Source of the DNA: Levilactobacillus bambusae
GTDB lineage: Bacteria; Bacillota; Bacilli; Lactobacillales; Lactobacillaceae
DNA: 64,000 nucleotides
NCBI RefSeq assembly: GCF_003124125.1
Contig: NZ_QCXQ01000002.1
Span: 519,068 to 583,067 of the forward strand
Direction: 5' to 3'
Shown: one piece after another, positions 9,855 to 63,960 of the stretch
How positions within the stretch are numbered: the first letter of the stretch is position 1
Layout: every line of letters starts with the position of its first letter
Notes under the pieces: model-generated
Told to the model about the DNA's origin: nothing
Database searches by the model: none
What the model saw: the letters and a program-made list of their open reading frames with translations, nothing else
Program-made: the position numbers and the translations under genes

Positions 9855-9968
9855 GGGCGTGATATCCCTCGCTTTATCCCCCGAGGATTAACGGAGCTAT
9901 CAAAAAATACTGGGTTTTAGTATTATTTGATAGCTTGGTTAACCACAAGGGGTTGAGGGACTGAACCC
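9855..9968. repeat. Family A hairpin repeat, copy 1
   Basis: Begins GGGCGTGATATCCCTC and ends GAGGGACTGAACCC. Nested pairing: TCCCTC/GAGGGA, CCCC/GGGG, then AGCTATCAAAAAATAC with GTATTATTTGATAGCT around a TGGGTTTTA loop. A ten-base linker AACTATAACA joins it to copy 2. Confidence 0.85.
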
Positions 9969-9978
9969 AACTATAACA

Positions 9979-10091
9979 GGGTGTGAAGTCCCCCGCTTTA
10001 TCCCCCGAGGATTAACGGAGCTATCAAAAATACTGGGTTTTAGTATTATTTGATAGCTTGGTTAACCACAAGGGGTTGAGGGACTGAACCC
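9979..10091. repeat. Family A hairpin repeat, copy 2
   Basis: Nearly identical to copy 1, with GTCCCCC in place of ATCCCTC and one A less in the central stem. Begins GGGTGTGAAG, ends TGAACCC, followed by the same AACTATAACA linker. Confidence 0.85.
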
Positions 10092-10101
10092 AACTATAAC
10101 A

Positions 10102-10121
10102 GGGTGTGAAATCCCTCGGTT
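10102..10121. repeat. Family A left-end fragment
   Basis: GGGTGTGAAATCCCTCGG, the first 18 or so bases of a third unit, then unrelated sequence. With copies 1 and 2 this makes the 400-base gap 9823-10225 essentially repeat plus one terminator, with no gene in it. Confidence 0.7.
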
Positions 10122-10136
10122 TTTCTCTACACAACA

Positions 10137-10182
10137 AAAAGTGCACCCCGCTTGGAAATAGTTCCAAGCGGGGTGCACTTTT
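10137..10182. terminator. Terminator of the TetR-MMPL operon
   Basis: 21-bp perfect stem, AAAAGTGCACCCCGCTTGGAA (10137-10157, shown to 20 plus one base as its two halves AAAAGTGCACC and CCGCTTGGAA) with its complement at 10162-10182, loop of four. A and T runs at both ends; it closes the leftward operon. Confidence 0.88.
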
Positions 10183-10225
10183 ATTTCAGTAATTCACTAT
10201 CGGTTTTATCACACGTGAACAACCG

Positions 10226-12925
10226 TTATTTATCGCGTGGCGCTAACTTGTTGTCCAAGGGGTAAGTTAGCCGGATAAAGCTAGAGATTACCGTTGGCAG
10301 CATGAAGATTAAGAGGACAAGCCCAATAATCACAACCATGGCAACTTGAATTAAGGTGAGGACACCCGATGGCATTAATGCGGCAAAGGTTCCGCCTAAA
10401 ATAATGGCGGCCGAGAGAACAACCGCACCAATCACTCCCGAAGCCTTCACAATTCGTTCGGTTGGTACCCCATCTGGACCGTATTCCCGGTACTTCATCA
10501 TTAAGAAAATACTGTAATCAATTCCCAGCGTCACTAACATGATGAAGGAGAAGAATGGCGTATTCCAGGTCAGAACCGACTGACCAGTGGTGAGACCGCT
10601 AACCCACTGCGTCAAGCCGAGTGACGTCATGTAGGCCAACAGTAAGGTCCCGAGAATGTACATCGGTTGAAGGACGGAGCGGGTAACGAAGAGAAGGCAG
10701 ATAAACAGCCCGATCATCATAATTGCAGCCGTCCGAATGAAATCAGAACTGGCAATCCGGTGCGTATCAGAAATGGTAGCCGTTTGGCCCCCAATGGCAA
10801 CGGTCGCGTTCTTTAGGTCCGTTCCCTTTAAGTTATCAATGACTTGCGTCTGCATCTTATCCACCTTCGACATGGAAGCCATCGAGCTTGGGTTGCTATC
10901 TAAGACAACCGTAATCTTGGCCACCTTCTTGTCGGAGGACAGGTAAGCTTTTTCAGAATCCTTGAACTCTGAGCTATTTAACACGTTATCAGGGATGTAG
11001 AACGTATCAGAAGCCGATGAGTTTTGTAACCCAGAGAGGTATTGGTTAGCCGCAACCGTCCCCTGGTTAATCTTCGTTAACCCATCGTTTGCTTCCTTCA
11101 AGCTTCCTTGAGCAGCCTGAAGTTCGCTAGCGACACTCTGCGTGTTCGTCCCAATACTTTGGGTGTCACTCGCAATCTGTTCCAAACTGCTTTGGAGGGT
11201 TGCGAGTGAACTTTGCTGACTCGAGCTGGCCTGTTGCAAAGCAGCCGCCAACACCTGTGATTGAGAGGCTGATAGCGGCTGGCCTGTTGCGGCCATTGCC
11301 TGCTGCAGCTGGCTCATCATCTGACTCTGCCCGTTGCTGCTTGAACCGGTTGCGGACTGAATGGCCTTTAACTGGCTGGCAATATCTTTGGCTGAGTTTC
11401 CGATGGATTTCAACCCGTTAGCGGTAGTTGTGCCGTTACTGCTGCTCAACCCATTCGAAATTTTCGTTAACCCATCTTGGGTTTTGCCTAGCTGACCGTT
11501 CAGCGTGCTTAATTGATCGTTCACGTAAAGTTTGTTAATCGGGGTCCCACCCGGTTGAGTAACCGATGCGACCGTCTTAACGCCCTTTTCGTCCTTCAAC
11601 TGTTTGGTAATCCGATCAATTTGTTGGTAGTCCTTTTCGTTGTCTAACTTATGGTTCGACTTGATGTAGATCGTGGAAGGTTCTGCAGTTCCCTCCGAGA
11701 AGTGTTTTTCGACAATCCGGAAACCCTTCTTGGCGGGTAACTGATCACTCAGTTCTACCATCGTATCGTAATTTAAGTTATTGTGGAACGTTAAGGCGAC
11801 TGGAATCGTTAGGATGGCGACAAGAGCCAACGCAATGAAGGGGTGAAGAACTGAGCTAGCGGATAAGCCATGCCACAGTTTATTCTCCCGGGCCCCGTCA
11901 AAGTTCTTGCTTGGCCAAAACATTTTCTTACCTAACAGAGCCATAAAGAACGGATTCAAGGTCAGTAAGACCACCAGCAGAACCGCAACCCCAACGGCAA
12001 CTCCTAGAGCAGATTGGTAAATGGAGAACTTGGCTAACCCTAACGTGGTAAACCCAATTAACACGGATAAGCCACTGTAGAGAATGGTTTTTCCCGCAAC
12101 CTTGCGGGCATCGATGGTTGCTTGGATTTTATCCTTGCCCTTCGATAGTTCTTCCTTAAATTGATCGTAAAGCAGAATATTGTAGTCCGTTCCAATCCCG
12201 AAGAGAACCACGACCATAAAGACCTGGGTAAAGTTCGACAGCGGGAAGTTCATGAACTTGACGAGGTTCATGACGATGCTTAATGACGTGATAAAACTGA
12301 CGCCAACCGTTAACAATGAAATTAGCGGAACCACCGGGGAACGGAAAACGAGAATCAACACAATCAAGATGAAAATGACGGCAATAACCTCCGTCTTTTG
12401 AATCCCCTGTTCCGTGGAAAGCCGGAAATCATCGTTTAAAACGTCGCTTCCCGTAACGTAGGTCTTAACCCCGTGTGTCTTAACGGCGCTAGATAACTGT
12501 TCGTTCATCTTTTGAACGGATTGATCCTTAGAAATGTTCAGCTGAACCAGTTGGGTAGTTTTATCCTTTGAGATCAACTGCTTCTTGGTTGCTGAATTAT
12601 CGTTTGGAGCCGTAATGCCCTTGATGTTGTAGCGGGACTTATGGTCCTGCAGCTTCGTAATGGTATCGTTGATATCATCCTGCTGACTCGTTGTAATCTT
12701 GTGGTCCCCGTTGTTGAATACCACCACAACTTGGCGGGTGTTACTGATGTTATGCCCCCAATGTTTCTGAATGGTATCCGCTACTTGGCTCTGTGCGGAG
12801 GCTGGAATCTTGGTCTGACCCTTGTCAGCCACTAATTGTGACATATTTGGCAGGGCCACCACACTAAGAATAACAACAACCAGCCAGGCAATGAGGCTCA
12901 ACGTTGTTTTGTTTCTGAACTTCAT
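10226..12925 (-). CDS. MMPL/RND-family membrane exporter
   Basis: 899 residues in two homologous halves. Each half has one N-terminal membrane segment (first at about 8-26), a large extracellular domain and a cluster of membrane segments. The proton-relay Asp-Tyr pair is present in both: GIGTDYNILLYDQF at about 243-256 and LGIDYSIFLMMKYREYG at about 800-816. The second extracellular domain (about 470-640) is a Ser/Gln/Ala-rich predicted coiled coil (QLGKTQDGLTKISNG, SLEQIASDTQSIGTN). The family exports lipids, hydrophobic compounds or peptides; substrate here unknown. The TetR gene lies 22 bases upstream on the same strand and a strong terminator follows, so the two form one operon, presumably autoregulated. 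Confidence 0.88.
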   Translation of the reverse strand: MKFRNKTTLSLIAWLVVVILSVVALPNMSQLVADKGQTKIPASAQSQVADTIQKHWGHNISNTRQVVVVFNNGDHKITTSQQDDINDTITKLQDHKSRYNIKGITAPNDNSATKKQLISKDKTTQLVQLNISKDQSVQKMNEQLSSAVKTHGVKTYVTGSDVLNDDFRLSTEQGIQKTEVIAVIFILIVLILVFRSPVVPLISLLTVGVSFITSLSIVMNLVKFMNFPLSNFTQVFMVVVLFGIGTDYNILLYDQFKEELSKGKDKIQATIDARKVAGKTILYSGLSVLIGFTTLGLAKFSIYQSALGVAVGVAVLLVVLLTLNPFFMALLGKKMFWPSKNFDGARENKLWHGLSASSVLHPFIALALVAILTIPVALTFHNNLNYDTMVELSDQLPAKKGFRIVEKHFSEGTAEPSTIYIKSNHKLDNEKDYQQIDRITKQLKDEKGVKTVASVTQPGGTPINKLYVNDQLSTLNGQLGKTQDGLTKISNGLSSSNGTTTANGLKSIGNSAKDIASQLKAIQSATGSSSNGQSQMMSQLQQAMAATGQPLSASQSQVLAAALQQASSSQQSSLATLQSSLEQIASDTQSIGTNTQSVASELQAAQGSLKEANDGLTKINQGTVAANQYLSGLQNSSASDTFYIPDNVLNSSEFKDSEKAYLSSDKKVAKITVVLDSNPSSMASMSKVDKMQTQVIDNLKGTDLKNATVAIGGQTATISDTHRIASSDFIRTAAIMMIGLFICLLFVTRSVLQPMYILGTLLLAYMTSLGLTQWVSGLTTGQSVLTWNTPFFSFIMLVTLGIDYSIFLMMKYREYGPDGVPTERIVKASGVIGAVVLSAAIILGGTFAALMPSGVLTLIQVAMVVIIGLVLLIFMLPTVISSFIRLTYPLDNKLAPRDK

Positions 12926-12947
12926 TTCGTCTCTTCCTCTCTAACAC

Positions 12948-13565
12948 TTAATTATCTTCGTGCAGCACATCATTGGGCGCCACAAATTGGGAGTCCCAGA
13001 TGATCTGCGCAATTTGTTTGGGTGATTCTGGATCAGGTTTCGATAACCAATGCATCACAATCGCCATCACACTACCCATAATCATTTCCTCGGTATACTC
13101 TTCGGGAATTTTCTGGTTATTAAAGAATCGGCTGCCACTTTCCTTTAAAGTGTGGTGCAACTTACTTCTAAATAGGGTCTCGATTCGATTGCGCAGCGTT
13201 AAATCACCCTGCTCACTCAACAGAGTCGAAATCATATCACGCTCTTCATCAAACCGGTTCAAAACCTTTAACACCACTCCATACAGGGAGTCGGCATGCC
13301 GTTCCGACTGACCCGTTAAATGGAGGAAGTCCTCCGACATGACTTGATCTAAGTCTTCTTCCAGAATTGCCATCAGCCGATCCTCAAGCTTGGCTAATAG
13401 ATCGTTAATGTCTAAATAGTGAAGGTAAAAGGTTCCTCGTCCCACACCCGCTTCCCGCGTAATATCGGTGACCTTGATGTTTTTCAAGCCCTTTTCCTTC
13501 ATTAACCTCACGAAGGCGTGAATAATGTCATGTTCCGTCTTAGCATTTCGCTCTTCCTGTTTCAC
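12948..13565 (-). CDS. TetR/AcrR-family regulator of the MMPL exporter
   Basis: 205 residues. N-terminal TetR DNA-binding domain with TEHDIIHAFVRLMKEKGLKN then the helix-turn-helix VTDITREAGVGRGTFYLHY at about 38-56, followed by an all-helical ligand domain with no close match that I recognise. First gene of a two-gene operon with the MMPL exporter 22 bases downstream; probably represses its own promoter until a substrate of the exporter binds. Start ATG at 13565 behind AAAGGGGTGAT. Confidence 0.88.
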   Translation of the reverse strand: MKQEERNAKTEHDIIHAFVRLMKEKGLKNIKVTDITREAGVGRGTFYLHYLDINDLLAKLEDRLMAILEEDLDQVMSEDFLHLTGQSERHADSLYGVVLKVLNRFDEERDMISTLLSEQGDLTLRNRIETLFRSKLHHTLKESGSRFFNNQKIPEEYTEEMIMGSVMAIVMHWLSKPDPESPKQIAQIIWDSQFVAPNDVLHEDN

Positions 13566-13596
13566 AAAATCACCCCTTTCTAATGCAACGGTGATT

Positions 13597-13624
13597 ATTA
13601 TACTGACAAAATTAAAATAGTCAA
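13597..13624 (-). promoter_or_regulatory. Promoter/operator of the TetR-MMPL operon
   Basis: On the minus strand TTGACT (13624-13619), 16-bp spacer, TATAAT (13602-13597). The spacer and -35 hold the inverted repeat TGAC-N12-GTCA (13604-13623), a candidate autoregulatory operator. Confidence 0.6.
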
Positions 13625-13799
13625 CACGGTGTTCAGCGTTTTTGAAAACAATCGTGACAGGCCATAAACCAATCGAACAATTTATGAAAGCAAGGCAGCA
13701 TTACACGTATATGAACAAGCAACGTTTTGACCGTAAAACTCATTCGTGCGTTTATATGCCGTTAACACTCTAGTTAAATTTAGGCGCTAAAACTGAGGG

Positions 13800-13836
13800 T
13801 TGACAAAATTTATAAACAACATTATTGTATGTACAA
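13800..13836 (+). promoter_or_regulatory. Promoter with MarR-type operator for the SDR-MarR operon
   Basis: TTGACA (13800-13805), 17-bp spacer, TATTGT (13823-13828). The inverted repeat TTGTATGTACAA (13825-13836) overlaps the -10 box and initiation region, the usual place for MarR autorepression. Confidence 0.65.
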
Positions 13837-13864
13837 TCAACAGATACGGAAAGAAGTGTTCTTC

Positions 13865-14599
13865 ATGACTAAAAATATCGTCATAACGGGTGGGACTTCT
13901 GGAATCGGGTTAGCCACCGCCAAACTACTCGCAAATGAACAGACAAACGTTATTATAATTGGTAAAAATTCTGAAAATAATCGAGCGGTTCAAGTGGCAA
14001 ACCCCAACCTACACGTTTACACCGCTGATCTCGGTCGACTTAATGACATTAAACAAGTATTTACCAAAATTCACAAAACCTTTAATACTATTGATAGTCT
14101 ATTTATTAACGCTGGCTTCGGACTCTTTAAACCCTTTACTGAAATCACAGAACAGGATTTCGACCGCTCCGTGGATTTAAACTATAAGGGCGCCTTTTTC
14201 ACCGCACAATCCGCTCTTCAATATATGCCAAATGGCTCCAATATGGTCTTTAATTTATCTTGGACCCATCACCGTGGTCTTGCAACCTCAACCCTCTATT
14301 CCTCCACGAAGGCCGCTACTTCCTATCTTATTAAGTCACTGGCATTGGAACTTTCAGATCGTCAAATTCGAATAAATGCCGTTAGTCCAGGCTACACAAA
14401 TACTAGTCAATTCAATGAGCAAAGCATTGAAACTGACCGTCTTAAGCAGATGCTGTCGGATGTTCCAGAGGGTCGGTTTGGCAGCGCCGAAGAAATCGGC
14501 AACGTCGTGAAATTTTTAATGTCTGATGAAGCCAGCTACGTCAATGGTCAAGAGGTCATTGTTGATGGTGGGCTAACCAGCGTTCAAGCTGGGGTATAG
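13865..14599 (+). CDS. Short-chain dehydrogenase/reductase
   Basis: 244 residues, classical SDR with cofactor motif TGGTSGIG at about 8-15 and a C-terminal GQEVIVDGGL. The NNAG motif appears as INAGFG (about 80). The catalytic region reads NLSWTHHRGLATSTLYSSTKAAT: the YxxxK pair is present, but the usual catalytic Ser three strands earlier is embedded in an unusual SWTHHR. An ATG at 13829 opens the frame but lies inside the -10/operator; ATG at 13865 behind GAAAGAAG is used. Overall AT-richer than the neighbouring genes. Ten bases before the MarR gene, in one operon. Substrate unknown. Confidence 0.82.
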   Translation: MTKNIVITGGTSGIGLATAKLLANEQTNVIIIGKNSENNRAVQVANPNLHVYTADLGRLNDIKQVFTKIHKTFNTIDSLFINAGFGLFKPFTEITEQDFDRSVDLNYKGAFFTAQSALQYMPNGSNMVFNLSWTHHRGLATSTLYSSTKAATSYLIKSLALELSDRQIRINAVSPGYTNTSQFNEQSIETDRLKQMLSDVPEGRFGSAEEIGNVVKFLMSDEASYVNGQEVIVDGGLTSVQAGV

Positions 14600-14609
14600 G
14601 AGGTTAATA

Positions 14610-15035
14610 ATGAGTAATATCAATTTTGAAGACTGTCTTTATTTTTCGAGTGCCAGATTTAACCGCATCGTTACACAGATGAGCGACCAAGAATTCAAAC
14701 GATTGGGGCTGTCATCAACATCTGCTTTTATTTTAATGGCATTGAATGCAGATGATGTTGTTTCCCCATCCGAAATTGCGGATCAACTGTACCTTGATCG
14801 TTCCACTATCACCCGGTTTCTCGACAAACTTGAACGTGATGGCTACCTCACACGAACAGCTGACGGTCGGCGCGTTCATGTTCAATTAACCTCCGCAGGT
14901 AAACTTCTGCAACCCCAACTAAAAATAATTTGGTCGGCTTTAAACGAAGCCTACCAGCAATTATTAGGAAAGCCATCAGAAGAACGAATCCGCACCCTGC
15001 TAAATACAACGTATAATCATATCACTAAAAAATAA
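14610..15035 (+). CDS. MarR-family regulator
   Basis: 141 residues with a winged helix-turn-helix: SPSEIADQLYLDRSTITRFLDKLERDGYLTRTADGRRVHVQLT (about 51-93, quoted only for location; recognition helix DRSTITRFLDKLE). The MarR dimerisation helices flank it. The ribosome binding site AGGAGG overlaps the end of the SDR gene, so it is translated as the second gene of that operon. Likely autoregulates through TTGTATGTACAA at 13825-13836, with release by a ligand that is a substrate of the SDR. Confidence 0.85.
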   Translation: MSNINFEDCLYFSSARFNRIVTQMSDQEFKRLGLSSTSAFILMALNADDVVSPSEIADQLYLDRSTITRFLDKLERDGYLTRTADGRRVHVQLTSAGKLLQPQLKIIWSALNEAYQQLLGKPSEERIRTLLNTTYNHITKK

Positions 15036-15092
15036 TTCAACTGTGCGTAACACTATTTAGGCGATACAACTAGTAGAAGTAAAATTAATTTA

Positions 15093-15719
15093 TTAATCTT
15101 CATCTGGCTTGCCTCGACCAGACCGGTAATCAGGCCTTAGCTGCTTCAAATATTCCAGTGCCATCTTAATCGATGCATCAGTATTCGGTAATTCATGGGT
15201 CATAAGGAAGCGATACCCCATTTCCTGCAGCTGATCATTATCACCATTAACCAGCATATCATCGATAATAGTTGCTGCTTGAGTACGAACACTCGGTATT
15301 TCCCGGGCAATAATAAACTTCCGAACAATATTCTTGAAAAGCTGTTCGTGTGAGATATTTCCCGGGTTATGGTAAATAGCCCGTTTAACATCAATCAGCA
15401 TCAACGCCATTTCAATTTGCAGTTTCTTCTCATTTAATGTTGCCTCGTGCTTGTCTAGAAGTGCATCCTTCTGGGTTAATTGAGCTTGGTCCTTGTTCCC
15501 CAGTGGCTCCATAATCGTAGCTATTTCATCCAATTCGATCCCAATTTGTCGAAAGCAAAGAACGGTTTCCAAATCACGAATATCTGTAGGTTGATAAACA
15601 CGATACCCGCTAGCATTCCGTTTTAATCGAGGAAAGAGTCCCTTCTTATCCCAAAAACGCAATGTTTGAACGGGCAAGTTATAGGCCTCCGCTACCTCTT
15701 TAATGGATTTACCAGTCAT
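15093..15719 (-). CDS. MerR-family regulator
   Basis: 208 residues. N-terminal MerR winged helix SIKEVAEAYNLPVQTLRFWDKKGLFP (about 4-29) followed by GYRVYQPTDIRDLETVLCF and the dimerisation coiled coil (about 80-125). The C-terminal 90 residues (FIIAREIPSVRTQAATIIDDM...) form a helical effector-type domain that I do not recognise. AGGAGG lies eight bases before the ATG. Convergent with the MarR gene. No target gene is adjacent in the same orientation; the leftward TMEM175-like gene is upstream of it and separated by a terminator. Confidence 0.82.
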   Translation of the reverse strand: MTGKSIKEVAEAYNLPVQTLRFWDKKGLFPRLKRNASGYRVYQPTDIRDLETVLCFRQIGIELDEIATIMEPLGNKDQAQLTQKDALLDKHEATLNEKKLQIEMALMLIDVKRAIYHNPGNISHEQLFKNIVRKFIIAREIPSVRTQAATIIDDMLVNGDNDQLQEMGYRFLMTHELPNTDASIKMALEYLKQLRPDYRSGRGKPDED

Positions 15720-15803
15720 TCTATCACCCTCCTTAACGAGCTGATTAATTTGTTTACATCATAAACCCTATTGTCAACTTTAACGCAAATAATATCAAAA
15801 TCG

Positions 15804-18368: not shown

Positions 18369-18427
18369 ATTTAAAAGCCGTGCTTCCCCAGTTGATGCCA
18401 TCAACTGGGGAAGCACGGCTTTTAAAT
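18369..18427. terminator. 59-bp perfect palindrome acting as convergent terminator
   Basis: 29-bp perfect arms around a single C at 18398; the arm begins ATTTAAAAGCCGTGCTTCCC. It lies between the converging TetR and SDR genes, with A/T runs at both ends, so a bidirectional terminator is the simplest reading. The arm length is far greater than needed. Confidence 0.8.
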
Positions 18428-20482: not shown

Positions 20483-20643
20483 GGTCCGCTCCGCTTAAAA
20501 AATGTGAAGCTTTCGGACCAGTAGTTACGGAACATAAGACAGACCACAACAAAATAGGGTAAGGGACCAAATCCGATCAAAATACAATCGAACCTGGTCC
20601 CTTACCCTATTTGGAATGGCCTGAACGTCTTATGTTCCAGCCT
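20483..20643. repeat. Family B structured repeat, fullest copy
   Basis: Left part GGTCCGCTCCGCTTAAAA...AGCTTTCGGACC, then nested hairpin: outer GGAACATAAGAC/GTCTTATGTTCC (20529-20540/20627-20638), inner 17-bp perfect arms starting AAATAGGGTAAGGGACC (20552-20568/20596-20612), loop containing AATCCGATC and ATCGAA. The 3' side carries CTGAACGTCTTA. It fills the 325-base gap 20332-20656 and may also terminate the MMPL gene. Confidence 0.78.
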
Positions 20644-28106: not shown

Positions 28107-28901
28107 ATGGACTTACAGTTAAAGGGTAAAACGGCACTCATTACCGGATCAACGAAGGGAATTGGCAAGGCAATCGCCCAGTCCATGGCGGGCGAAGGAG
28201 TCAACGTGATTATTAACGGTCGCCAACCAGACGTTGTTTCACAGGTTGTCACGGACCTCCAAAGCCAGTATCCACACGTTACGGTCAGTGGCGCCCCGTT
28301 TGACATCACCAGTGATTTAAAGGCGCGTGAACTCATGGCTAAGTTCCCCCACGTTGACATCTTAGTGAATAATATGGGGATTTTTAAACCGATGGCCTAC
28401 CAAAACATTGACGATGCCACATGGAAGAAATTTTTCGACGTCAACGTCCTTTCGGGCAACCGATTGGCTAAATACTACCTCCCCAAAATGATCAGCCAAA
28501 ACTTTGGGCGCATCATTTTTATTGCTAGTGAGGAAGCGGTAATGCCGTCCGGTGAAATGCCACAGTACAGCATGACCAAATCCATGAACCTCTCGCTTGC
28601 TAAGAGCCTGTCTAAATTAACGGTTGGAACAAACGTGACCGTCAACACCGTCATGCCTGGATCCACCTTAACGGAGGGTGTGCAAACCATGTTGGACGAC
28701 ATGTACGCAGATACCGATTTAACGGCATCGGAACGGGAAGCCGACTTTATGAAAAACCACCGGCCCCTCTCGCAAATTCAGCGGCTAATCCGCCCAGAAG
28801 AAATCGGTGCCTTTGTCACATTCGTCGCCAGCCCACTAGCCGGTGGCTTTTCAGGCGAAGCTCTCCGCATGGACGGTGGCATGGTCCCAACGATTTTTTA
28901 A
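28107..28901 (+). CDS. Short-chain dehydrogenase/reductase
   Basis: 264 residues, classical SDR: cofactor motif TGSTKGIGKAIAQSM at about 14-28, DILVNNMGIFKPM (NNxG) at about 85, active site IASEEAVMPSGEMPQYSMTK with Ser, Tyr and Lys in place (about 140-160), and the C-terminal GFSGEALRMDGGMVPTIF. Substrate unknown. GGGGCGG precedes the ATG by five bases. A family A repeat array begins one base after the stop codon. No regulator is adjacent; parS lies 76 bases upstream. Confidence 0.85.
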   Translation: MDLQLKGKTALITGSTKGIGKAIAQSMAGEGVNVIINGRQPDVVSQVVTDLQSQYPHVTVSGAPFDITSDLKARELMAKFPHVDILVNNMGIFKPMAYQNIDDATWKKFFDVNVLSGNRLAKYYLPKMISQNFGRIIFIASEEAVMPSGEMPQYSMTKSMNLSLAKSLSKLTVGTNVTVNTVMPGSTLTEGVQTMLDDMYADTDLTASEREADFMKNHRPLSQIQRLIRPEEIGAFVTFVASPLAGGFSGEALRMDGGMVPTIF

Positions 28902-28902
28902 A

Positions 28903-29014
28903 GGGTGTGGAACCGCTCGGTAGATCTCGAGGATTAACTGAGGCATCGGAAAATGCTGGTTTTGAGCATTATTCGATGCCTTGGTTAACCGCAGAGATCT
29001 GAGCGGTGGAACCC
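28903..29014. repeat. Family A hairpin repeat, copy 3
   Basis: Begins GGGTGTGGAACCGCTCGG, ends GAGCGGTGGAACCC. Pairs: CCGCTC/GAGCGG, AGATCTC/GAGATCT, central GGCATCGGAAAATGCT with AGCATTATTCGATGCC. Linker GACTAAA to the next copy. Confidence 0.85.
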
Positions 29015-29021
29015 GACTAAA

Positions 29022-29133
29022 GGGTGTGGAATCACTCGGTAGATCCCGAGGAATAACGTCAGAAACAAAATATGCTGGGCTTTAGCATAATTTGTTTCTT
29101 GGGTTATCCGGAGGGATCTGAGTGATGGAACCC
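29022..29133. repeat. Family A hairpin repeat, copy 4
   Basis: Pairs: ATCACTC/GAGTGAT, AGATCCC/GGGATCT, central AGAAACAAAATATGCT with AGCATAATTTGTTTCT around TGGGCTTT. Almost identical to the copy at 63665-63776, 34 kb away. Linker GACTAAA. Confidence 0.88.
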
Positions 29134-29140
29134 GACTAAA

Positions 29141-29251
29141 GGGTGTGTAGCATTTCGGGAGCTTCTGAGAATTAACGGAGAAAGGAAAAATGCCGGGCTT
29201 TGGCATTCTTTTCTTTCTTGGTTAACCGCAGGAAGCTGAAATGCGGAACCC
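29141..29251. repeat. Family A hairpin repeat, copy 5
   Basis: Pairs: GCATTTC/GAAATGC, AGCTTC/GAAGCT, central AGAAAGGAAAAATGCC with GGCATTCTTTTCTTTCT. All three stems differ in sequence from copies 3 and 4 yet still pair. Confidence 0.85.
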
Positions 29252-29256
29252 GACTA

Positions 29257-29287
29257 GGGTGTAGAATTACTCGGTAGATCCTGAAAC
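29257..29287. repeat. Family A left-end fragment
   Basis: GGGTGTAGAATTACTCGGTA and GATCCTGA, the first 30 bases of a unit, after which the sequence departs. Together with copies 3-5 this accounts for most of the 483-base gap 28902-29384; the remaining 97 bases hold nothing recognisable beyond the ribosome binding site of the next gene. Confidence 0.7.
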
Positions 29288-29384
29288 CTACCGTCTCCGC
29301 CAAGCCCAATCCATTGAGTTTACCACCAAACCGTTTTACACTAGCCGTAAGCAAAACAACTAATTTAATGATGGGGGCATTAGT

Positions 29385-37782: not shown

Positions 37783-37900
37783 AAAAAGTGGGACTGGAAA
37801 CAAATAGGGGCGATGCCCAATCCGATCAAAAACTCGATCGAATCTGGTCATCGCCCCTACTTGGCGGGATCTGAACGTCTTACGCCCCCGCCCCCACCTT
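37783..37900. repeat. Family B structured repeat / terminator
   Basis: Outer AAAAAGTGGG with CCCACCTTTTT, inner AAATAGGGGCGATG/CATCGCCCCTACTT (37802-37815/37849-37862), loop with AATCCGATC and GATCGAATC, then CTGAACGTCTTA. It overlaps the stop of the HAD gene and probably terminates it. Confidence 0.75.
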
Positions 37901-49710: not shown

Positions 49711-49798
49711 GAAGTGTAGACTTCCGCGGGAAATTCTGAGAATTTGCGGAATGGAACACGTTATTCGTTTAAGGATTAACCTCTTCATACACTAGCGC

Positions 49799-53009: not shown

Positions 53010-53111
53010 GAACCCACAACAAAATAAGCAGCGTAGCCAATTCCGATTACAACGAATCGAATTCAGCCACGCTGCTTATTTGTCAGGTCTAAACATCTTA
53101 TCGTTCAGCCT
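53010..53111. repeat. Family B structured repeat
   Basis: AAATAAGCAGCGT/ACGCTGCTTATTT (53022-53034/53069-53081) around ATTCCGATT...AATCGAATT, then TCTAAACATCTTA in place of CTGAACGTCTTA. Lies between the converging SDR and OpuA genes, where it may terminate both. Confidence 0.72.
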
Positions 53112-53115
53112 TTAT

Positions 53116-57884: not shown

Positions 57885-58038
57885 TTCGGTCATTCGGCAC
57901 TTCGCTCAAAAAACGACTCTTGCAACGTAGTCCGAAAGCCCTTCATCCTTAACAGGATACTTTCGGACCAGGAATTACGGGATATAAGACAGACCACAAC
58001 TAAATAGGGAGGATGGTCTGAACGTCTTATCTCCCAGC
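57885..58038. repeat. Family B element, centre deleted
   Basis: TCCGAAAG/CTTTCGGA (57931-57938/57960-57967), then GGGATATAAGAC/GTCTTATCTCCC (57979-57990/58024-58035) enclosing AGACCACAACTAAATAGGG and GGTCTGAACGTCTTAT. The long inner stem present at 20552-20612 is missing here. Confidence 0.7.
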
Positions 58039-58046
58039 CCGTTTAT

Positions 58047-58058
58047 TTAGGCACCTAA
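58047..58058. promoter_or_regulatory. MarR operator 1
   Basis: TTAGGCACCTAA, inverted repeat with the centre G-C/C differing by one base from operator 2. It lies just upstream of the -35 box at 58067. Confidence 0.68.
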
Positions 58059-58066
58059 CAAAATCC

Positions 58067-58094
58067 TTGCATTCTGATGTCAGGTGCGTATACT
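58067..58094 (+). promoter_or_regulatory. Promoter of the MarR-ABC operon
   Basis: TTGCAT (58067-58072), 16-bp spacer, TATACT (58089-58094), flanked on both sides by TTAGGYACCTAA boxes. Confidence 0.65.
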
Positions 58095-58104
58095 TAGGAT
58101 CTTG

Positions 58105-58116
58105 TTAGGTACCTAA
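58105..58116. promoter_or_regulatory. MarR operator 2
   Basis: TTAGGTACCTAA, perfect 12-bp palindrome ten bases after the -10 box; 58 bp centre to centre from operator 1. Confidence 0.7.
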
Positions 58117-58140
58117 ATAAATTTTAAGGAAGTCGACAAA

Positions 58141-58689: not shown

Positions 58690-58701
58690 GAGGTGGCCAC
58701 A

Positions 58702-60465
58702 ATGCGAAATATGCCAAATCTTGAAGCAGATGAATCACTGAACCACCTCTTTACGTGGAAAAAATTCATGGATTTACTCAATAAATCCAAACCGAAAATG
58801 ACGCTATTAATCGTGGGATTTATCATCAGTCTCATTTCCACCGGAATTAGCCTGATGATTCCCCTCTTCACCAAAAACTTAGTGGATGGGTTTTCCCTTA
58901 AGAATCTCAACGCTGGGTTCATCGCAATCATTGTGGCGGCCTTTCTCATTCAAGCCCTCACCAGTGCCATTTCGAGTTACATGATGGGCGTCATGGGTGA
59001 ACAAACCGTTGCCAACCTGCGGCAGCTAGTCTGGCATAAGATCGTTGATCTGAAGGTTGCTTACTTTGACGACCACCAAACGGGTGAAACCACCAGCCGG
59101 CTAACCAATGATACAACGGTGGTCAAATCCCTCGTGGCCGATCAGCTGCCCTCCTTTATTAGCGGTATCCTCTCCATGGTGGGGGCCTTCATCGTGCTCT
59201 TTCTCATGGATTGGAAAATGACCCTGGTTATTCTAGTAGCCGTTCCCATCGTTGCCCTATTAATGATTCCAATCGGTAACTGGATGCGGAAAATTTCCAT
59301 TCGCTTACAGCGTCAGACGGCCGAGTTCAACAGTTTATCAACGGAGACCCTCAGCGAGGCCCGTCTAGTTAAGGCCTCAAACGGCGAAACCACTGAAATC
59401 AAGAACGGGGACAATGGCATTCAGAACCTCTACCAAACCGGGGTTCAAGAAGCCAAAATCATGGCCATTATCAGCCCAATTATGCTGCTTGCCATGATGG
59501 GGATCCTCGTTGCCGTCATTGGTTACGGCGGAGTTCGGGTCCAGAACGGAACACTAACCATCGGAACCCTAGTGGCTTTCTTGCTGTACCTCTTCCAAAT
59601 TATCGCACCCGCAACCCAATTCTCCCAGTTCTTTACCCAGCTCCAAAAGACCAAGGGCGCCACGGCTAGGTTGAACGATATTTTGGAACAGCCCGTTGAA
59701 GATTTATCCGCGGGTAAAGCAGTTGACGTTTCCGGCCAAACAATTGCCGTTCACGACGTTAGTTTTAACTACGAAGCGGATAAACCGGTTCTAAAGCACA
59801 TTAGTTTTGAAGCGCACCCGAATTCCATCGTGGCATTTGCCGGCCCCAGCGGTTCCGGGAAGTCCACCCTCTTTAGCCTGCTGGAACGGTTCTACCAGCC
59901 AACGTCGGGGGAAATCACACTGGGAACACATCCTATTAACGACATTGCGTTAGAGTCCTGGCGGGGGCAGATTGGCTACGTGGCCCAAGATAGTGCCTTG
60001 TTCACCGGCACAATTCGGCATAACCTTACCTACGGCCTCGACCGGGACGTTTCAGACGATGAACTTTGGCAGGTGTTAAAACTGGCGTTTGCCGATCAAT
60101 TCGTCCGGGACATGCCCGACCAGTTAAACACTCAGGTGGGTGAACGCGGGGTTAAGGTATCTGGCGGGCAGCGGCAACGCTTATCCATCGCCCGGGCCTT
60201 TCTCCGGGACCCTAAAATTTTGATGCTGGATGAAGCAACGGCCAGCTTAGATAGTCAATCCGAAGAGATGGTTCAACGAGCCTTAAATAACCTGATGGCC
60301 CACCGGACCACGCTCGTCATTGCCCACCGTTTATCAACCATAGTGGACGCAGATAAAATTATTTTCATCGAAAATGGTGAAATTACGGGTCAAGGCACGC
60401 ACAAAGAACTATTAGCCACCCACGACCTCTACCGTCAATACGTGGACGAACAATTTAATAACTAA
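58702..60465 (+). CDS. ABC multidrug/lipid exporter, half-transporter (LmrA/BmrA-like)
   Basis: 587 residues. Six membrane helices in the first 320 residues, beginning MTLLIVGFIISLISTGISLM, with the coupling region YFDDHQTGETTSRLTNDT. ATPase domain from about 345: Walker A AFAGPSGSGKSTLFSLLERF, Q-loop YVAQDSALFTGTIRHNL, signature VSGGQRQRLSIARAFL, Walker B ILMLDEATASLDSQSEE and H-loop VIAHRLSTI. Works as a homodimer exporting hydrophobic compounds. ATG 58702 has AGGAGG eight bases upstream, within the end of the MarR gene region; GTG 58693 is less likely. Operon with MarR, closed by a strong terminator. Confidence 0.93.
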   Translation: MRNMPNLEADESLNHLFTWKKFMDLLNKSKPKMTLLIVGFIISLISTGISLMIPLFTKNLVDGFSLKNLNAGFIAIIVAAFLIQALTSAISSYMMGVMGEQTVANLRQLVWHKIVDLKVAYFDDHQTGETTSRLTNDTTVVKSLVADQLPSFISGILSMVGAFIVLFLMDWKMTLVILVAVPIVALLMIPIGNWMRKISIRLQRQTAEFNSLSTETLSEARLVKASNGETTEIKNGDNGIQNLYQTGVQEAKIMAIISPIMLLAMMGILVAVIGYGGVRVQNGTLTIGTLVAFLLYLFQIIAPATQFSQFFTQLQKTKGATARLNDILEQPVEDLSAGKAVDVSGQTIAVHDVSFNYEADKPVLKHISFEAHPNSIVAFAGPSGSGKSTLFSLLERFYQPTSGEITLGTHPINDIALESWRGQIGYVAQDSALFTGTIRHNLTYGLDRDVSDDELWQVLKLAFADQFVRDMPDQLNTQVGERGVKVSGGQRQRLSIARAFLRDPKILMLDEATASLDSQSEEMVQRALNNLMAHRTTLVIAHRLSTIVDADKIIFIENGEITGQGTHKELLATHDLYRQYVDEQFNN

Positions 60466-60471
60466 GGGTTT

Positions 60472-60532
60472 AAACCCCCGTATCCGACCTAGAAATGCAA
60501 TTCTGCCAGCATTTTAGGTGATACGGGGGTTT
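60472..60532. terminator. Bidirectional terminator
   Basis: 13-bp stem AAACCCCCGTATC/GATACGGGGGTTT with inner ACCTAGAAATGC/GCATTTTAGGT; T run on the plus strand, A run on the other side. Confidence 0.88.
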
Positions 60533-60543
60533 TTAATTTGCGG

Positions 60544-60918
60544 TTATGCGTCGGGTTGTTGTTTTAGCTGCTTTAGGTGGGTCAGCTTTTGCTTTAAAAA
60601 CTGTTTTTGCTGCTCGATGTCTGCAATCCGTTTATCCAGTTCGACGTCTAAATGGGTCAGAAAGGTTAGGGCCTCATCCACTTTAGCGGGCGTGAAATCC
60701 GTTTCACTCAGCTGAACAAAGTTTTTCGTTTCCTTCACGGTCGCACCTAGCCGACGAAAATGCACTACCTTATTAACGGCTTCAACGTCCGAATCCGAGT
60801 AGTGCCGAATTCCCTGCTGATCCCGTGTAATAGGCGGCAAAAGGCCTTCGCTTTCATAGTATCGGAGGGTGTTTTTAGAAACCCCGAACCGATCGGCCAC
60901 TTCTTTAATTGAGTACAT
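60544..60918 (-). CDS. MerR-family regulator
   Basis: 124 residues. N-terminal MYSIKEVADRFGVSKNTLRY (1-20) with YESEGLLPPITRDQQGIRHY, the two helix-turn-helix/wing parts of MerR, then SDVEAVNKVVHFRRLGATVKE and a long coiled coil (about 80-118, LDKRIADIEQQKQFLKQKL). No metal-binding Cys, so it belongs with the aldehyde/organic-stress MerR group (AdhR-like). It diverges from the SDR at 61005, whose promoter has a 19-bp spacer, the hallmark of MerR activation. Confidence 0.86.
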   Translation of the reverse strand: MYSIKEVADRFGVSKNTLRYYESEGLLPPITRDQQGIRHYSDSDVEAVNKVVHFRRLGATVKETKNFVQLSETDFTPAKVDEALTFLTHLDVELDKRIADIEQQKQFLKQKLTHLKQLKQQPDA

Positions 60919-60942
60919 AGTAAACTCCCTTCAACTTTTCAC

Positions 60943-60973
60943 TTGCGTTAGTGTAACATGAACGTGCTAGACT
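60943..60973 (+). promoter_or_regulatory. MerR-type promoter with 19-bp spacer
   Basis: TTGCGT (60943-60948), 19-bp spacer, TAGACT (60968-60973). CACT-N6-AGTG (60940-60953 region) overlaps the -35 box. Over-long spacers are typical of promoters that need a MerR protein to twist the DNA. Confidence 0.6.
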
Positions 60974-61004
60974 TGCCATCAACAACTTGAAGGGAAGTTT
61001 TATC

Positions 61005-61763
61005 ATGACAAATACTGAAACCATTACGTTAATCACCGGGGCCAACCGAGGCATGGGTTATGAACTTGCTAAAGCTCTAGGGCAGGCTGGGCAGCACGTC
61101 CTCGTCGGTTCCCGCCGCTTCGATAAGGGCCAGGCTGCCGTTCAGCAGCTCCAAGAAGAAGGCATCACCGCAGACGCCATTCAGCTTGATGCGACAGACC
61201 ACGATTCCATTACCCGGGCCGTTCAACGGGTAAGCGATGAATTTGGCTACCTCACCATCCTCATTAATAATGCCGGGGCTGCCTTCGACAGTCATCACGC
61301 CCCATCTGATTTACCACTTAATATTATTCGCCAAGACTTTGATCTGAACCTCTTCGGGTTAATTGACGTGACCCAGCAGTTCTTACCCCTCCTGAAAAAG
61401 AGCCCGTCCGCTAAAATCATCAATATCTCGAGCATGATGGGATCCATTACTGCCGCACTGGATCCAAATTCAGCCGTTTATCGGGCTAGTGCAGCGGGTT
61501 ACCAGGCCTCAAAATCGGCTGTTAACATGTACTCCGTTCAACTCGCAAAGGAGCTTCAGCGGGACAACCTTCCCATTACGGTCAACCTAATTGATCCCGG
61601 GATGGTTGCCACCCACTTTGGCGGAGTAACACCGGAACAGGCCAAACAAATGGGGGCTCAGCCGCTCGAAGTCGGGATTGCAAGAACGGTTGAACTAGCA
61701 ACGAGCTCCGATAATAACACCTCCGCAACGTTCAGCAACGTTAACGGTCCGGTAGGCTGGTAA
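61005..61763 (+). CDS. Short-chain dehydrogenase (carbonyl reductase type)
   Basis: 252 residues. TLITGANRGMGYELAKALGQ (8-27), VGSRRFDKGQAAV (Arg pair, NADPH), LTILINNAGAAFDSHH (about 86-101), active site INISSMMGSITAALDPNSAVYR with YQASK (Ser-Tyr-Lys) and LIDPGMVATHFGG. Resembles carbonyl reductase-like SDRs. The frame opens at 60987, but ATG 61005 has GAAGGGAAG seven bases upstream. Divergent from a MerR gene and probably activated by it, which hints at an aldehyde or quinone substrate. Confidence 0.86.
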   Translation: MTNTETITLITGANRGMGYELAKALGQAGQHVLVGSRRFDKGQAAVQQLQEEGITADAIQLDATDHDSITRAVQRVSDEFGYLTILINNAGAAFDSHHAPSDLPLNIIRQDFDLNLFGLIDVTQQFLPLLKKSPSAKIINISSMMGSITAALDPNSAVYRASAAGYQASKSAVNMYSVQLAKELQRDNLPITVNLIDPGMVATHFGGVTPEQAKQMGAQPLEVGIARTVELATSSDNNTSATFSNVNGPVGW

Positions 61764-61833
61764 TTTTCCCGTTGGAATTGGGGGCCGTTCATGATACGGT
61801 AAACCTAAATAAACCTTTTTAGGAGGCCCCACC

Positions 61834-62364
61834 ATGCAGATTATTCCAGTTACACCTGATGAATACAAAACCACCGAGCACCTCGTGCAAACTGCCTTTG
61901 CGCCCGTTGAACTATCCGACCACGATGAGCATCGATTGATTAACCGGCTCCGAAACGAGCCCCACTACCACCCGGAATTTGACTTAGTGGCTAAGGATGA
62001 GAATGGGCAAATCATCGGCCATGCGATGCTGTCTGAAATTCAGATTCAGTCCAACTCTCAATCCGTTACGGCCCTTGCTCTCGCTCCCTTAGCCGTCCTG
62101 CCAGAGGCCCAAGGTCAGGGCGTTGGGGGAAGACTCATTGCGGCGCTTGAAACCGCAGCGCGAGAAGCCGACTATCCCGCCATCAGCATCCTCGGTGATC
62201 CCCACTATTACGGTCGGTTTGGGTACGTTCCCGCTAGTCAGTATCAAATTCACGCAAGCTTTGCCGTCCCCGCCGAGTTTTACATGGTTAAACCACTCAC
62301 TCCTCGGGCCCTGGCAGGCGTTACGGGTACCATTTCTTATTTACCCGCGTTTGGGATTGACTAA
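61834..62364 (+). CDS. GNAT-family N-acetyltransferase (YhbS-like)
   Basis: 176 residues. LAPLAVLPEAQGQGVGGRLI (about 86-105) is the acetyl-CoA binding motif A with Q-x-x-G-V-G; ILGDPHYYGRFGYVPASQYQ (about 128-147) is the motif that distinguishes the YhbS group. Substrate unknown. AGGAGG lies seven to eight bases before the ATG. Short gaps separate it from neighbours, but the next gene has its own start region. Confidence 0.88.
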   Translation: MQIIPVTPDEYKTTEHLVQTAFAPVELSDHDEHRLINRLRNEPHYHPEFDLVAKDENGQIIGHAMLSEIQIQSNSQSVTALALAPLAVLPEAQGQGVGGRLIAALETAAREADYPAISILGDPHYYGRFGYVPASQYQIHASFAVPAEFYMVKPLTPRALAGVTGTISYLPAFGID

Positions 62365-62448
62365 TTTTCCGGATAAATTAACCCGTTCATAAATTTATTG
62401 ATAAATTATGCTATGATAATCACATCAATAAAAATTGGAGTGATTATT

Positions 62449-63072
62449 TTGTCAAATCGACCCGCCGATCCAAATATTGAAGCCCTTTCAAAAAAGGACA
62501 TTTTTGATCGAGTTCGGGATGGTGATTGGTATCAGTTCAAACACGAACCCGCCATGCAAAAAATCGTTACCGAGAGTGCCATTCAAATTCAAAAAATTAA
62601 CGACGTGGCTAAAACTGATCCGGATCAGGCACTAACTATGCTGCACGACATCGTCCCCCATTTAGCGGACGATGTCGCCATCCTGTTTCCGATTGCCACG
62701 ATTGAGCACCCTGCCTGTTTAACCGTTGGCCCCGGGACCTTCTTTAACACGGGATTGCAAATTCTCAGTGCTGGCCAGGTGACCATCGGCAGCAACTGCT
62801 TTATTGGCCCGAACTGTCAGCTGTATACCCCCAACCACCATCCATCGGATAAGCTGCTGCGCCGAGATGGTTGGCAGTATGACCTGCCCATTACCATCGG
62901 GGATGACTGCTGGTTTGGAGGGTCAGTCATTGTGCTTCCCGGGGTTACACTCGGGGATAACGTGGTCGTTGGGGCTGGCAGCGTCATTACCAAGGACGTT
63001 CCAAGTGATACCGTGGTTGCAGGGAACCCCGCCCGGCCGATTCAGCACCACGAAAATTCCCCGGCATCTTAA
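62449..63072 (+). CDS. Sugar O-acetyltransferase (maltose/galactoside type)
   Basis: 207 residues. N-terminal maltose-acetyltransferase region (ALSKKDIFDRVRDGDWYQ) and a left-handed beta helix of hexapeptide repeats, e.g. LTVGPGTFFNTGLQILSAGQ, VTIGSNCFIGPNCQLY, catalytic His in YTPNHHPSD (about 124-132), ITIGDDCWFGGSVIVLPGVT and VVVGAGSVITKDVPSDTVVA. Acetyl-CoA dependent acetylation of sugars, probably to expel non-metabolised ones. The frame opens at 62398, but TTG 62449 has GGAG eight bases upstream and matches the family N terminus. Confidence 0.88.
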   Translation: MSNRPADPNIEALSKKDIFDRVRDGDWYQFKHEPAMQKIVTESAIQIQKINDVAKTDPDQALTMLHDIVPHLADDVAILFPIATIEHPACLTVGPGTFFNTGLQILSAGQVTIGSNCFIGPNCQLYTPNHHPSDKLLRRDGWQYDLPITIGDDCWFGGSVIVLPGVTLGDNVVVGAGSVITKDVPSDTVVAGNPARPIQHHENSPAS

Positions 63073-63131
63073 TCGTTGCATCTCCACCCAATTTCAACTA
63101 GACTCTGCGTAAAGCAGAGGAGGTTTTGCCA

Positions 63132-63692
63132 ATGAAACGCCAGGTGATTTTGTTCATCGCCCAGAGCTTGGACGGTTACATTGCCAAACCAGATTTTTCC
63201 GTTGATTTTTTGATGACGGGCGACCCCATCGAACCAGACCACGAATACGATAAACTCATGGCCCAAGTCGATACCGTTATCATGGGAAAAACGACCTATG
63301 ATCAACTCGTCACCGAGTTATCACCCACGCATTATCCCTACGCCAACCAGGAAAGTTATGTTCTAACGTCCCACCCGGAAGACGTCGAAGCAACGGGTAA
63401 CCGGCACTTCATGAATACGGATCCCGTTGCCTTAGTTCAACAACTAAAAAGTCAACCCGGACGCAGCATCTGGATTGTCGGGGGCAGCAGTTTAATTACG
63501 CCGCTCGTCAATGCGGGCCTCATTGACCGCTACCAAATTGCCGTGGTTCCCGTTATCCTAGGTGACGGAATTCCCCTTTTTTCATTGGGCATTCAACCGA
63601 CAACGCTCAACCTAGTCGACGCATTTAAAATTAACGAAATTGCCTATTTAACGTACCAAAAAAAGGGTGTGGAATCACTCGGGAGATCTTGA
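63132..63692 (+). CDS. DHFR/RibD-like reductase ending inside a repeat
   Basis: 186 residues, RibD C-terminal/DHFR fold: VILFIAQSLDGYIAKPDFSV (4-23), DTVIMGKTTYDQL (about 47-59), SIWIVGGSSLITPLVNAGLID (about 114-134) and VVPVILGDGIPLF. NADPH-dependent reductase of unknown substrate; not a true folate reductase. GAGGAGG lies eight bases before ATG 63132. The natural C terminus would be INEIAYLTYQKK; the last nine codons (GVESLGRS and the TGA) are read from a family A repeat that begins at 63665, so the repeat now supplies the stop codon. Confidence 0.86.
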   Translation: MKRQVILFIAQSLDGYIAKPDFSVDFLMTGDPIEPDHEYDKLMAQVDTVIMGKTTYDQLVTELSPTHYPYANQESYVLTSHPEDVEATGNRHFMNTDPVALVQQLKSQPGRSIWIVGGSSLITPLVNAGLIDRYQIAVVPVILGDGIPLFSLGIQPTTLNLVDAFKINEIAYLTYQKKGVESLGRS

Positions 63693-63776
63693 GGATTAAC
63701 GTAAGAAACAAAATATGCTGGGCTTTAGCATAATTTGTTTCTTGGGTTATCCGGAGGGATCTGAGTGATGGAACCC
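63665..63776. repeat. Family A hairpin repeat, copy 6
   Basis: Pairs ATCACTC/GAGTGAT, GATC/GATC and AGAAACAAAATATGCT with AGCATAATTTGTTTCT. Close copy of 29022-29133. Its first 28 bases form the end of the DHFR-like gene. Confidence 0.88.
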
Positions 63777-63783
63777 GACTATA

Positions 63784-63895
63784 AGGTGTGGAAAGCCTCG
63801 GTAACTCTCGAGGATTAACGTAAGCAGCAAATAATACTAAAGCCCAGTATTTTTTGCTGCTTGGGTTAACCGGAAAGAGTTGAGGTTTGGAACCC
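63784..63895. repeat. Family A hairpin repeat, copy 7
   Basis: Pairs AGCCTC/GAGGTT (one G-T), AACTCT/AGAGTT and AGCAGCAAATAATACT with AGTATTTTTTGCTGCT. The loop reads AAAGCCC, the reverse complement of GGGCTTT in copies 4-6, so the tip of the hairpin is inverted. Confidence 0.85.
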
Positions 63896-63902
63896 AACTA
63901 TA

Positions 63903-63960
63903 GGGTGTGGAACCACTCGGGAGATCGTGAGGAATAATGTAAGAAGTAAAATTGGAACCT
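63903..63960. repeat. Family A unit with internal deletion, copy 8
   Basis: GGGTGTGGAACCACTCGGGAGATC...GTAAGAAGTAAAATTGGAACC: the left third fused to the right end, with the central hairpin lost. The last 40 bases of the window hold nothing I recognise. The gap 63693-64000 is otherwise all repeat. Confidence 0.75.

Follow-up and report, generated by a model that had tools for sequence, protein, structure and literature searches.

Shape-conserved bulged hairpin repeats beside gene ends in Levilactobacillus bambusae and related Bacilli

A 64,000-nucleotide stretch of the Levilactobacillus bambusae genome (contig NZ_QCXQ01000002.1, positions 519,068 to 583,067 of the forward strand; hereafter the window) carries tandem hairpin repeats whose stems differ from copy to copy yet remain paired. 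Such an array raises the question of whether the units form a structured RNA family or are copies of a mobile element that is recognized in its folded form. Our analysis favours the latter: the units are probably copies of a non-autonomous mobile hairpin of ~120 bp, which would be recognized by its shape and would insert beside intrinsic terminators. This reading builds on direct observations of the fold and its covariation, the strand that folds, the bias in position and orientation, the variety of junctions that species show at one gene end, and array members that are mostly closer to copies elsewhere than to each other.

Fold and covariation of the hairpin units

Seven complete units, each 119-122 nt long, lie at three sites in the window, all on the + strand. 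The first site holds unit 1 (9852..9973; 120.5 bits, z -5.9) and unit 2 (9976..10096; 119.1 bits, z -6.1), which share 96% identity. The second holds unit 3 (28900..29019; 136.8 bits, z -9.0), unit 4 (29019..29138; 133.8 bits, z -7.1) and unit 5 (29138..29256; 121.9 bits, z -6.7), and the third holds unit 6 (63662..63781; 131.3 bits, z -9.5) and unit 7 (63781..63900; 121.5 bits, z -5.6). A model search of the window returned five of the seven, and the other two, which share one base with a neighbour, were recovered in the genome-wide search. Every unit folds into one long bulged hairpin, with z-scores of -5.6 to -9.5 against dinucleotide shuffles, and none of 200 shuffles matched the real folding energy; the stretches folded for these scores sit 1-2 nt off the unit ends given here.

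From the outside inward, the hairpin starts with a short stem, which is followed by an internal loop rich in purines or simply continues, and then has stem 1, a one-sided 5' bulge of 3-4 nt, stem 2, a small asymmetric internal loop, a bulged A within GG(A)TTAAC/GTTAACC, and stem 3, capped by an apical loop. In the genus, the relatives share a skeleton in which the 5' half reads AAGAGTG, stem 1, CGGTTAG with the 3-4 nt 5' bulge inside it, stem 2 and YGAGSATTAACG, followed by stem 3 with its loop, GTTAASCGSAG, stem 2', CTG, stem 1' and CACGTTTC. The unit ends, AAAGAGTGYG and CRCACGTTTC, are roughly inverted. The skeleton letters are conserved alongside the pairing, whereas the stem letters are free provided that the pairs hold. 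In the window, the skeleton word GGGTGTGGAA occurs 14 times with at most one mismatch, compared to 5.5 expected by chance, and none of 100 shuffles reached 14; single skeleton words are nevertheless weaker evidence than the fold and its covariation.

Among the seven window units, many pairs in stems 1-3 are altered on both sides, and some cells are unpaired. In an alignment of 43 copies from the genus (35 chosen from 51 matches in relatives, in addition to eight from the L. bambusae genome), 97.4% of the pair cells pair and 33 of the 41 pairs show double compensatory changes. The covariation score of 0.713 compares with 0.177 for the shuffled alignment and 0.076-0.138 for the slid one. An extended alignment of 81 distinct rows from Lactobacillales and Bacilli, drawn from 47 chosen loci, fitted to the model and including four reverse-strand rows, gave a score of 0.904 versus 0.186, with all 41 pairs doubly changed; further pair types are no more numerous in it than in shuffles. 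Moreover, the 43-row alignment contains 75 G·T cells and only nine A·C cells, which indicates that the drawn (+) strand is the one whose fold counts, RNA and single-stranded DNA being undistinguished by this measure. These data confirm that the shape is under selection and that the fold of one strand is favoured.

The first-pass annotation had placed seven complete units at three sites, as we find, but at ~112 nt each, shorter than measured. It had also described three separate stems that change together. The joint change is borne out by the double changes and holds strongly in the larger alignments, whereas the three stems prove to be stacked segments of a single hairpin, parted by the 5' bulge and the small internal loop. 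Likewise, its proposal that the fold and not the sequence is selected stands for the fold, but conservation extends to the letters of the skeleton.

Matched changes of this kind might also arise through hairpin-templated correction combined with gene conversion between copies, the repeats being inert and their fold under no selection. Such a process would fit two species, G012 and G027, that share one junction at the gene pyrG (see below) and have wholly different stems there. It should, however, also have removed the bulge on one side, the bulged A and the asymmetric internal loop, all of which persist in most of the copies read from other families, and the excess of G·T over A·C cells shows that one strand's fold is favoured. 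We hold this explanation to be highly improbable.

The units lack the form of an intrinsic terminator, a GC-rich hairpin running directly into a T run: they mostly end in CACGTTTC or CCCGACTA. The terminators discussed below are separate features that adjoin the units. A search of the window against Rfam gave no match at the gathering score, and at up to E 1 two loci gave one chance match only, away from the units.

Copies at gene ends and across genomes

A covariance model built on the seven units was searched against the 1.97-Mb L. bambusae genome at E 0.01. It returned 107 matches, many of which are the mirror image of a copy on the opposite strand. The curated own-strand list has 72 entries (69 plus three added), with 67 being full-length at 105-130 nt, and these group into 41 clusters of 1-4 units, two clusters consisting of a short piece only. 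Within arrays, the neighbour is the best match in only 14 of 54 comparisons (27 adjacent pairs, taken both ways), and the mean identity is 0.74 to the array neighbour versus 0.86 to the best match anywhere in the genome. Since neighbours are seldom each other's best match, most arrays are not products of recent local duplication. The arrays or pairs at C10:528919, C10:609703, C21:111342 and C35:51912, with identities of 0.96-0.99, look as if they had arisen by recent local duplication.

The copies are strongly biased in position and orientation. In the window, the upstream gene for a short-chain dehydrogenase (SDR; 28107-28901) has its stop codon overlapping the first bases of unit 3, and an open reading frame (ORF) with a RibD_C domain (63126-63692) terminates within unit 6, which supplies its last residues and stop codon; the array at 9852 is oriented opposite to its upstream gene. 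The upstream gene lies on the same strand for 34 of 41 clusters in the L. bambusae genome and for 77 of 94 copies in the relatives. Sense copies that overlap the upstream stop codon or lie at most 20 nt past it account for 25 of the 41 clusters in L. bambusae (random mean 5.6, largest 13 in 2000 draws) and 46 of the 94 copies in the relatives (random mean 6.5, largest 15 in 2000 draws). The copies from the relatives were chosen by a pattern that requires the skeleton and leaves the stems free to be unpaired, and the ORF calls are mechanical. For TAG among the stops borne by the elements, a loose count, in which some entries are doubled, gave 50 of 111, and a controlled one gave 17 of 35 versus 178 of 556 (Fisher p 0.06). 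We do not claim an enrichment.

Sorting 96 copies from the relatives by position brings in the terminators. Forty-eight begin at most 24 nt from a same-strand stop codon; 22 of these are followed by a terminator within 150 nt, and one has a terminator just upstream. A further 31 sense copies lie at a greater distance from the stop, and in 19 of them a hairpin with a T run ends at most 30 nt upstream, compared to 5.1% expected for random positions in the same stretches. The upstream gene of the remaining 17 lies on the other strand, and two of these copies have a terminator just upstream. Outside the stop-codon class, a terminator within 150 nt downstream is found in five of 48 copies. For genes outside this sorting, the terminator stem stands at a median of 23 nt from the stop (43 cases found). 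On these counts, the terminator is the better landmark, from which the position at the stop codon follows.

As to the surroundings of copies in the relatives, a recurrent type of linker, GACYATANACGTTCGGAGCGCAAAA, and a repeated type of terminator, GGGTCTGGGACTTTTGTCCCAGACCC, occur 3' of many of them (e.g., L128, L173 and L106). At L089, L102, L111 and L114, the downstream copies retain the 3' half only, with an altered 5' half, and the same linker is repeated.

The position just past the stop codon would also be expected of a host regulatory RNA, namely a 3'-untranslated region (UTR) hairpin held in place by selection for mRNA stability, translation termination or ribosome release, its stems being under RNA-level selection at each gene. 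Consistent with such a role, copies read in the sense direction from the stop codon onward, and copies with compensated stems are kept at orthologous gene ends in several species. There are also precedents in the literature: Efa elements of Enterococcus possibly stabilise cotranscribed mRNA (unpublished preliminary data; PMC1590033), and bcr3 is associated with a longer mRNA half-life in Bacillus cereus, in numbers that its authors call small (PMC3446304). A fold kept for a 3'-UTR job, however, should be decaying in copies that lie behind terminators or run against the upstream gene. The mean fold energies are -64.7, -64.5 and -65.2 kcal/mol for the 48 copies at stop codons, the 31 sense copies farther off (of which 19 closely follow a terminator) and the 17 opposite copies, respectively, an equality that is partly built in, because the skeleton pattern omits decayed copies. 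Within this biased sample, copies thus fold equally well whether they lie near the upstream gene, far from it or opposite to it, and the fold is not explained by a 3'-UTR role alone. Moreover, 22 of 30 species have no copy at pyrG. Host 3'-UTR function alone was therefore rejected as the principal explanation, and we consider it unlikely. In a variant of this idea, all copies may act in trans as RNAs.

The hairpin extends well beyond L. bambusae, whose genome is included in every genome count below. Using a model built from the 43-row alignment, we found matches in at least 34 of 36 Levilactobacillus genomes, with 0-99 matches each, 20 or more in 29 genomes and at least 1,565 in total, counts that include mirror matches and rest on the best 100 candidates. 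Two genomes, G016 and G022, gave no match, compared to 20-99 in 29 of the 36, and they provide a useful contrast for finding the mover; G025 gave two matches. Across Lactobacillaceae, at least 113 of 201 genomes and 24 of 40 genera matched, based on the best 17 candidates. In Lactobacillales, 45 of 246 genomes matched, 31 of them outside Lactobacillaceae, and in Bacilli 7 of 299; four of the latter lie outside Lactobacillales, including two from one genus with genomes of 4.1-4.2 Mb. Among the matches listed by the skeleton-pattern scan are Levilactobacillus, Lactiplantibacillus, Companilactobacillus, Lacticaseibacillus, Lapidilactobacillus, Paucilactobacillus and some Lactobacillus genomes.

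Inspection of the letters of 21 and 17 distant matches revealed that most keep the same plan and some depart from it. The plan comprises an AGAG or GAAAAG start, the CG(N)TTAG bulge, a paired stem 2, CTG or CTGG, and an end of the CACGTTT- or GGACA-type. Tandem arrays of the same hairpin, with a period of 122-125 nt, also occur in other families and orders (L260, L262, L277, L284 and L286). Small dispersed repeats are usually catalogued species by species and by sequence; the present family comes out well only under modelling by shape, and then spans an order and reaches beyond it.

A probable mobile hairpin beside terminators

The end of pyrG, a gene located in all 36 Levilactobacillus genomes, allows the insertion sites to be compared across species. 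At 30 loci compared, eight species have a copy, every one in sense orientation and two with a second tandem copy, and the other 22 stretches gave no model match at E 0.001. Up to six junctions are represented among the eight species. One is common to G021, G012 and G027, where the stop codon is a TAG formed together with the element. In G020, G018 and G015, the usual last residues of pyrG are lost, leaving a changed C-terminus with the stop in or at the element. In G026 and G017, the copy lies 11 and 8 nt, respectively, behind an intact stop. Two empty relatives, G002 and G019, have a native pyrG terminator for which G026 and G017 show no counterpart; there, the element and a different terminator occupy its place (two sites, compared between species and not between close strains). 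The wholly different stems of G012 and G027 at one junction point to replacement of one copy by another. Other orthologous gene ends likewise keep a copy in different species, with the stems compensated. A single TA target fits one pyrG junction and not the others, and is not claimed.

The several junctions at pyrG, in addition to the equal folding in three position classes, support a mobile element better than a structured RNA. Between these two, the first-pass annotation had left the choice open, its mobile version being recognized as folded single-stranded DNA; we lean to the mobile one, whose recognized folded form may be single-stranded DNA or RNA. It had also singled out the tandem arrangement as unusual, which we now see as a trait of this hairpin family, since arrays with the 122-125 nt period occur in other genera too.

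We propose that the element would insert next to the stem-loop of an intrinsic terminator, oriented with transcription. A copy would then begin at the stop codon, either between the gene end and the terminator or in place of the terminator, or else just behind the terminator. Existing copies, being hairpins themselves, may serve as further targets, which would yield same-direction tandem arrays of unlike copies. An enzyme would recognize the folded strand, the target hairpin may be lost upon insertion, and transcribed copies might affect mRNA 3' ends and may thereby matter to the host.

Two known kinds of machinery were considered as the mover. A REP-type element could be mobilised by a Y1 transposase, of either the RAYT or the IS200 type, that recognizes folded single-stranded DNA. 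The strand-specific hairpin, its location at gene 3' ends and its arrays would all suit such an enzyme, and a Y1_Tnp domain is present in 23 of the 36 genomes of the genus. The L. bambusae genome itself, however, gave no match to PF01797 (Y1_Tnp), nor did G002, G017, G033, G012 and G005, despite their 74, 74, 66, 47 and 39 hairpin matches, whereas G022 has Y1_Tnp yet no hairpin copy. Some Y1 genes of the genus are probably those of ordinary IS200 elements. Mobilisation by Y1 is accordingly quite improbable in our judgement. Alternatively, the hairpin RNA could be copied into transcript ends by a reverse transcriptase, like a short interspersed element, which would account for the sense bias and the terminator-side position; class C group II introns likewise target terminators. 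RVT_1 (PF00078) is absent from the L. bambusae genome and present in only 10 of the 36 genomes, yet 29 of the 36 have at least 20 hairpin matches, and such a retroelement seems very unlikely to us.

Several points weigh against a mobile hairpin that inserts beside terminators. No mobilising enzyme was found by the searches for the Y1_Tnp and RVT_1 domains, other recombinase families not being searched, and no target-site duplication was established around the units. The differences observed are between species, with no strain-level insertion seen; some of those at pyrG could be loss or conversion instead of insertion, and the shared junction of the close species G012 and G027 carries wholly different stems, which requires that one copy took the place of another. 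By a simple scan, 26 of the 48 stop-codon copies lack a terminator within 150 nt downstream and 12 of the 31 farther sense copies lack a close upstream one, 17 of the 96 run opposite to their upstream gene, and the selection described above bears on how equally the classes fold. In addition, unlike many mobile elements, the hairpin gave no blastn match in a plasmid collection (six query copies) or a phage collection (two query copies). As the copies are too divergent for blastn, which reaches close copies only, these negatives are weak evidence of absence. In viral contigs, one pattern gave no hit, a looser pattern gave four stretches and the covariance model gave no match; the four are taken as chance.

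More speculatively, the hairpins might constitute a shape-defined superfamily of transposable elements that extends from Lactobacillales into other Bacilli, moved by an enzyme of an unrecognised kind that would read the bulged skeleton in one folded strand and join that strand to a terminator stem-loop, with neither Y1 transposase nor reverse transcriptase. Such hairpin-to-hairpin transposition is a conceivable outcome, but one that we doubt. The family also allows a connection of insertion sites with transcription terminators to be put to the test. The large natural set of variants separates the features that are kept (bulges, skeleton letters and pairing) from those that drift, which should make the recogniser findable. 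The repeats account as well for unusual C-termini and rearranged 3' ends in some genes of these food bacteria.

Besides the complete units, the window contains several partial ones on the + strand. The first array is followed by a 5' fragment of a further unit (10097..10121; repeat family D4), and directly 3' of the array lies an inverted repeat with A- and T-run flanks that resembles a two-way terminator (10128..10191, no strand assigned; I12). The second array ends in another 5' fragment (29256..29295; repeat family D3). The third continues into a unit whose central stem is deleted (63900..63968; partial model match 63900-64000, 20.0 bits). A weak and heavily deleted stretch at 49711..49764 (20.1 bits, E 0.002) is a possible remnant. 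On the - strand, the 5' half of one unit, absent from the first-pass list, lies at 6685..6738, with inverted repeats I1, I3, I4 and I7 and a model match at 6646-6738 (18.8 bits). An inverted repeat of 93% spans 6632-6690, and a perfect one with 29-nt arms and a 1-nt centre lies at 18369-18427 (I9).

A second repeat occurs in the window at 20510-20642, 37829-37892, 53014-53110 and 57960-58039, and also flanks hairpin clusters of the L. bambusae genome (e.g., C10:136084 and C10:292326). It has CTTTCGGACCAGTAGTTACGGG on one side and, on the other, a long terminator-like hairpin with varying letters (AAATAGGG..ACC / GGT..CCCTATTT), followed by CATGGCCTGAACGTCTTATGTTCCAGCC. Its stems also seem to co-vary. 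The hairpin units sit inside it in 0, 1 or 2 copies: some L. bambusae arrays have one or two units between the recurrent 5' piece and the recurrent terminator piece, and the window also has such pieces with none between.

Comparison with known repeat systems

Small intergenic repeats that can fold have been described in several bacteria. The Efa elements of Enterococcus faecalis are intergenic stem-loop repeats that lie preferentially near the 3' ends of coding sequences (CDSs) (PMC1590033), and Efa-1 is a pair of adjacent stem-loops of 163 bp with 65 copies (PMC2267715, PMC1590033). The Levilactobacillus units similarly lie preferentially at CDS 3' ends, but each is a single bulged hairpin of ~120 nt, in contrast to the two stem-loops, 163 bp and one species of Efa-1. 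Efa was reportedly named EFAR in a 2007 paper in FEMS Microbiology Letters, in which stem-loops are said to be the integration targets and to be mostly lost. Likened by description and not by sequence, Efa/EFAR may be a cousin of the Levilactobacillus hairpins.

BOX elements of Streptococcus pneumoniae and S. suis are small, modular intergenic repeats that are over-represented between convergent genes and supply a stop codon to the 3' ends of 36 CDSs (PMC3049150). The present units resemble them in being intergenic and arrayed, with copies that can provide a gene's stop codon. They are set apart, again by description, in that BOX follows the order boxA-(boxB)n-boxC, whereas here complete hairpins are repeated whole, with stems compensated between neighbours. 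The layout with flanking pieces is BOX-like in plan, as judged from the described order of the BOX modules.

REP elements are palindromic and dispersed, form composite arrays (BIME) and are associated with RAYT transposases (PMC2817692, PMC3733652); they measure 20-40 bp, bear a GTAG or CGTC tag (PMC3733652) and occur near gene 3' ends (PMC1590033). The Levilactobacillus units differ from them in their length of 119-122 nt and in the lack of a Y1 transposase in the L. bambusae genome, the tag not having been searched for. Integron attC sites, with their R and L boxes, are another kind of site recognized in folded form, in their case by an integron integrase. The repeats bcr1-bcr18 of the B. 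cereus group are intergenic and often within UTRs, some resembling miniature inverted-repeat transposable elements and some having a conserved RNA structure (PMC3446304). The likeness to our units is that both are intergenic and structured; bcr has been described for the B. cereus group, and the comparison is by character and not by sequence. A mobile or repeat candidate with one long stem, strong covariation and often dozens of copies per genome has been judged selfish (PMC11109978). It differs from the hairpins described here in its conserved repeat UYCCGG, which is not part of the Levilactobacillus skeleton.

Titles and abstract openings of the open-access literature yielded no description of this family in Lactobacillaceae. 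The kind is already known, as small, dispersed, foldable repeats at gene ends include REP, BOX, Efa and bcr. A similar abundant repeat also exists in Bacillus. As far as open-access searches show, what is new is a family held by its shape across an order and beyond, stems that drift freely by compensation from one neighbouring copy to the next, and the two-sided link to intrinsic terminators.

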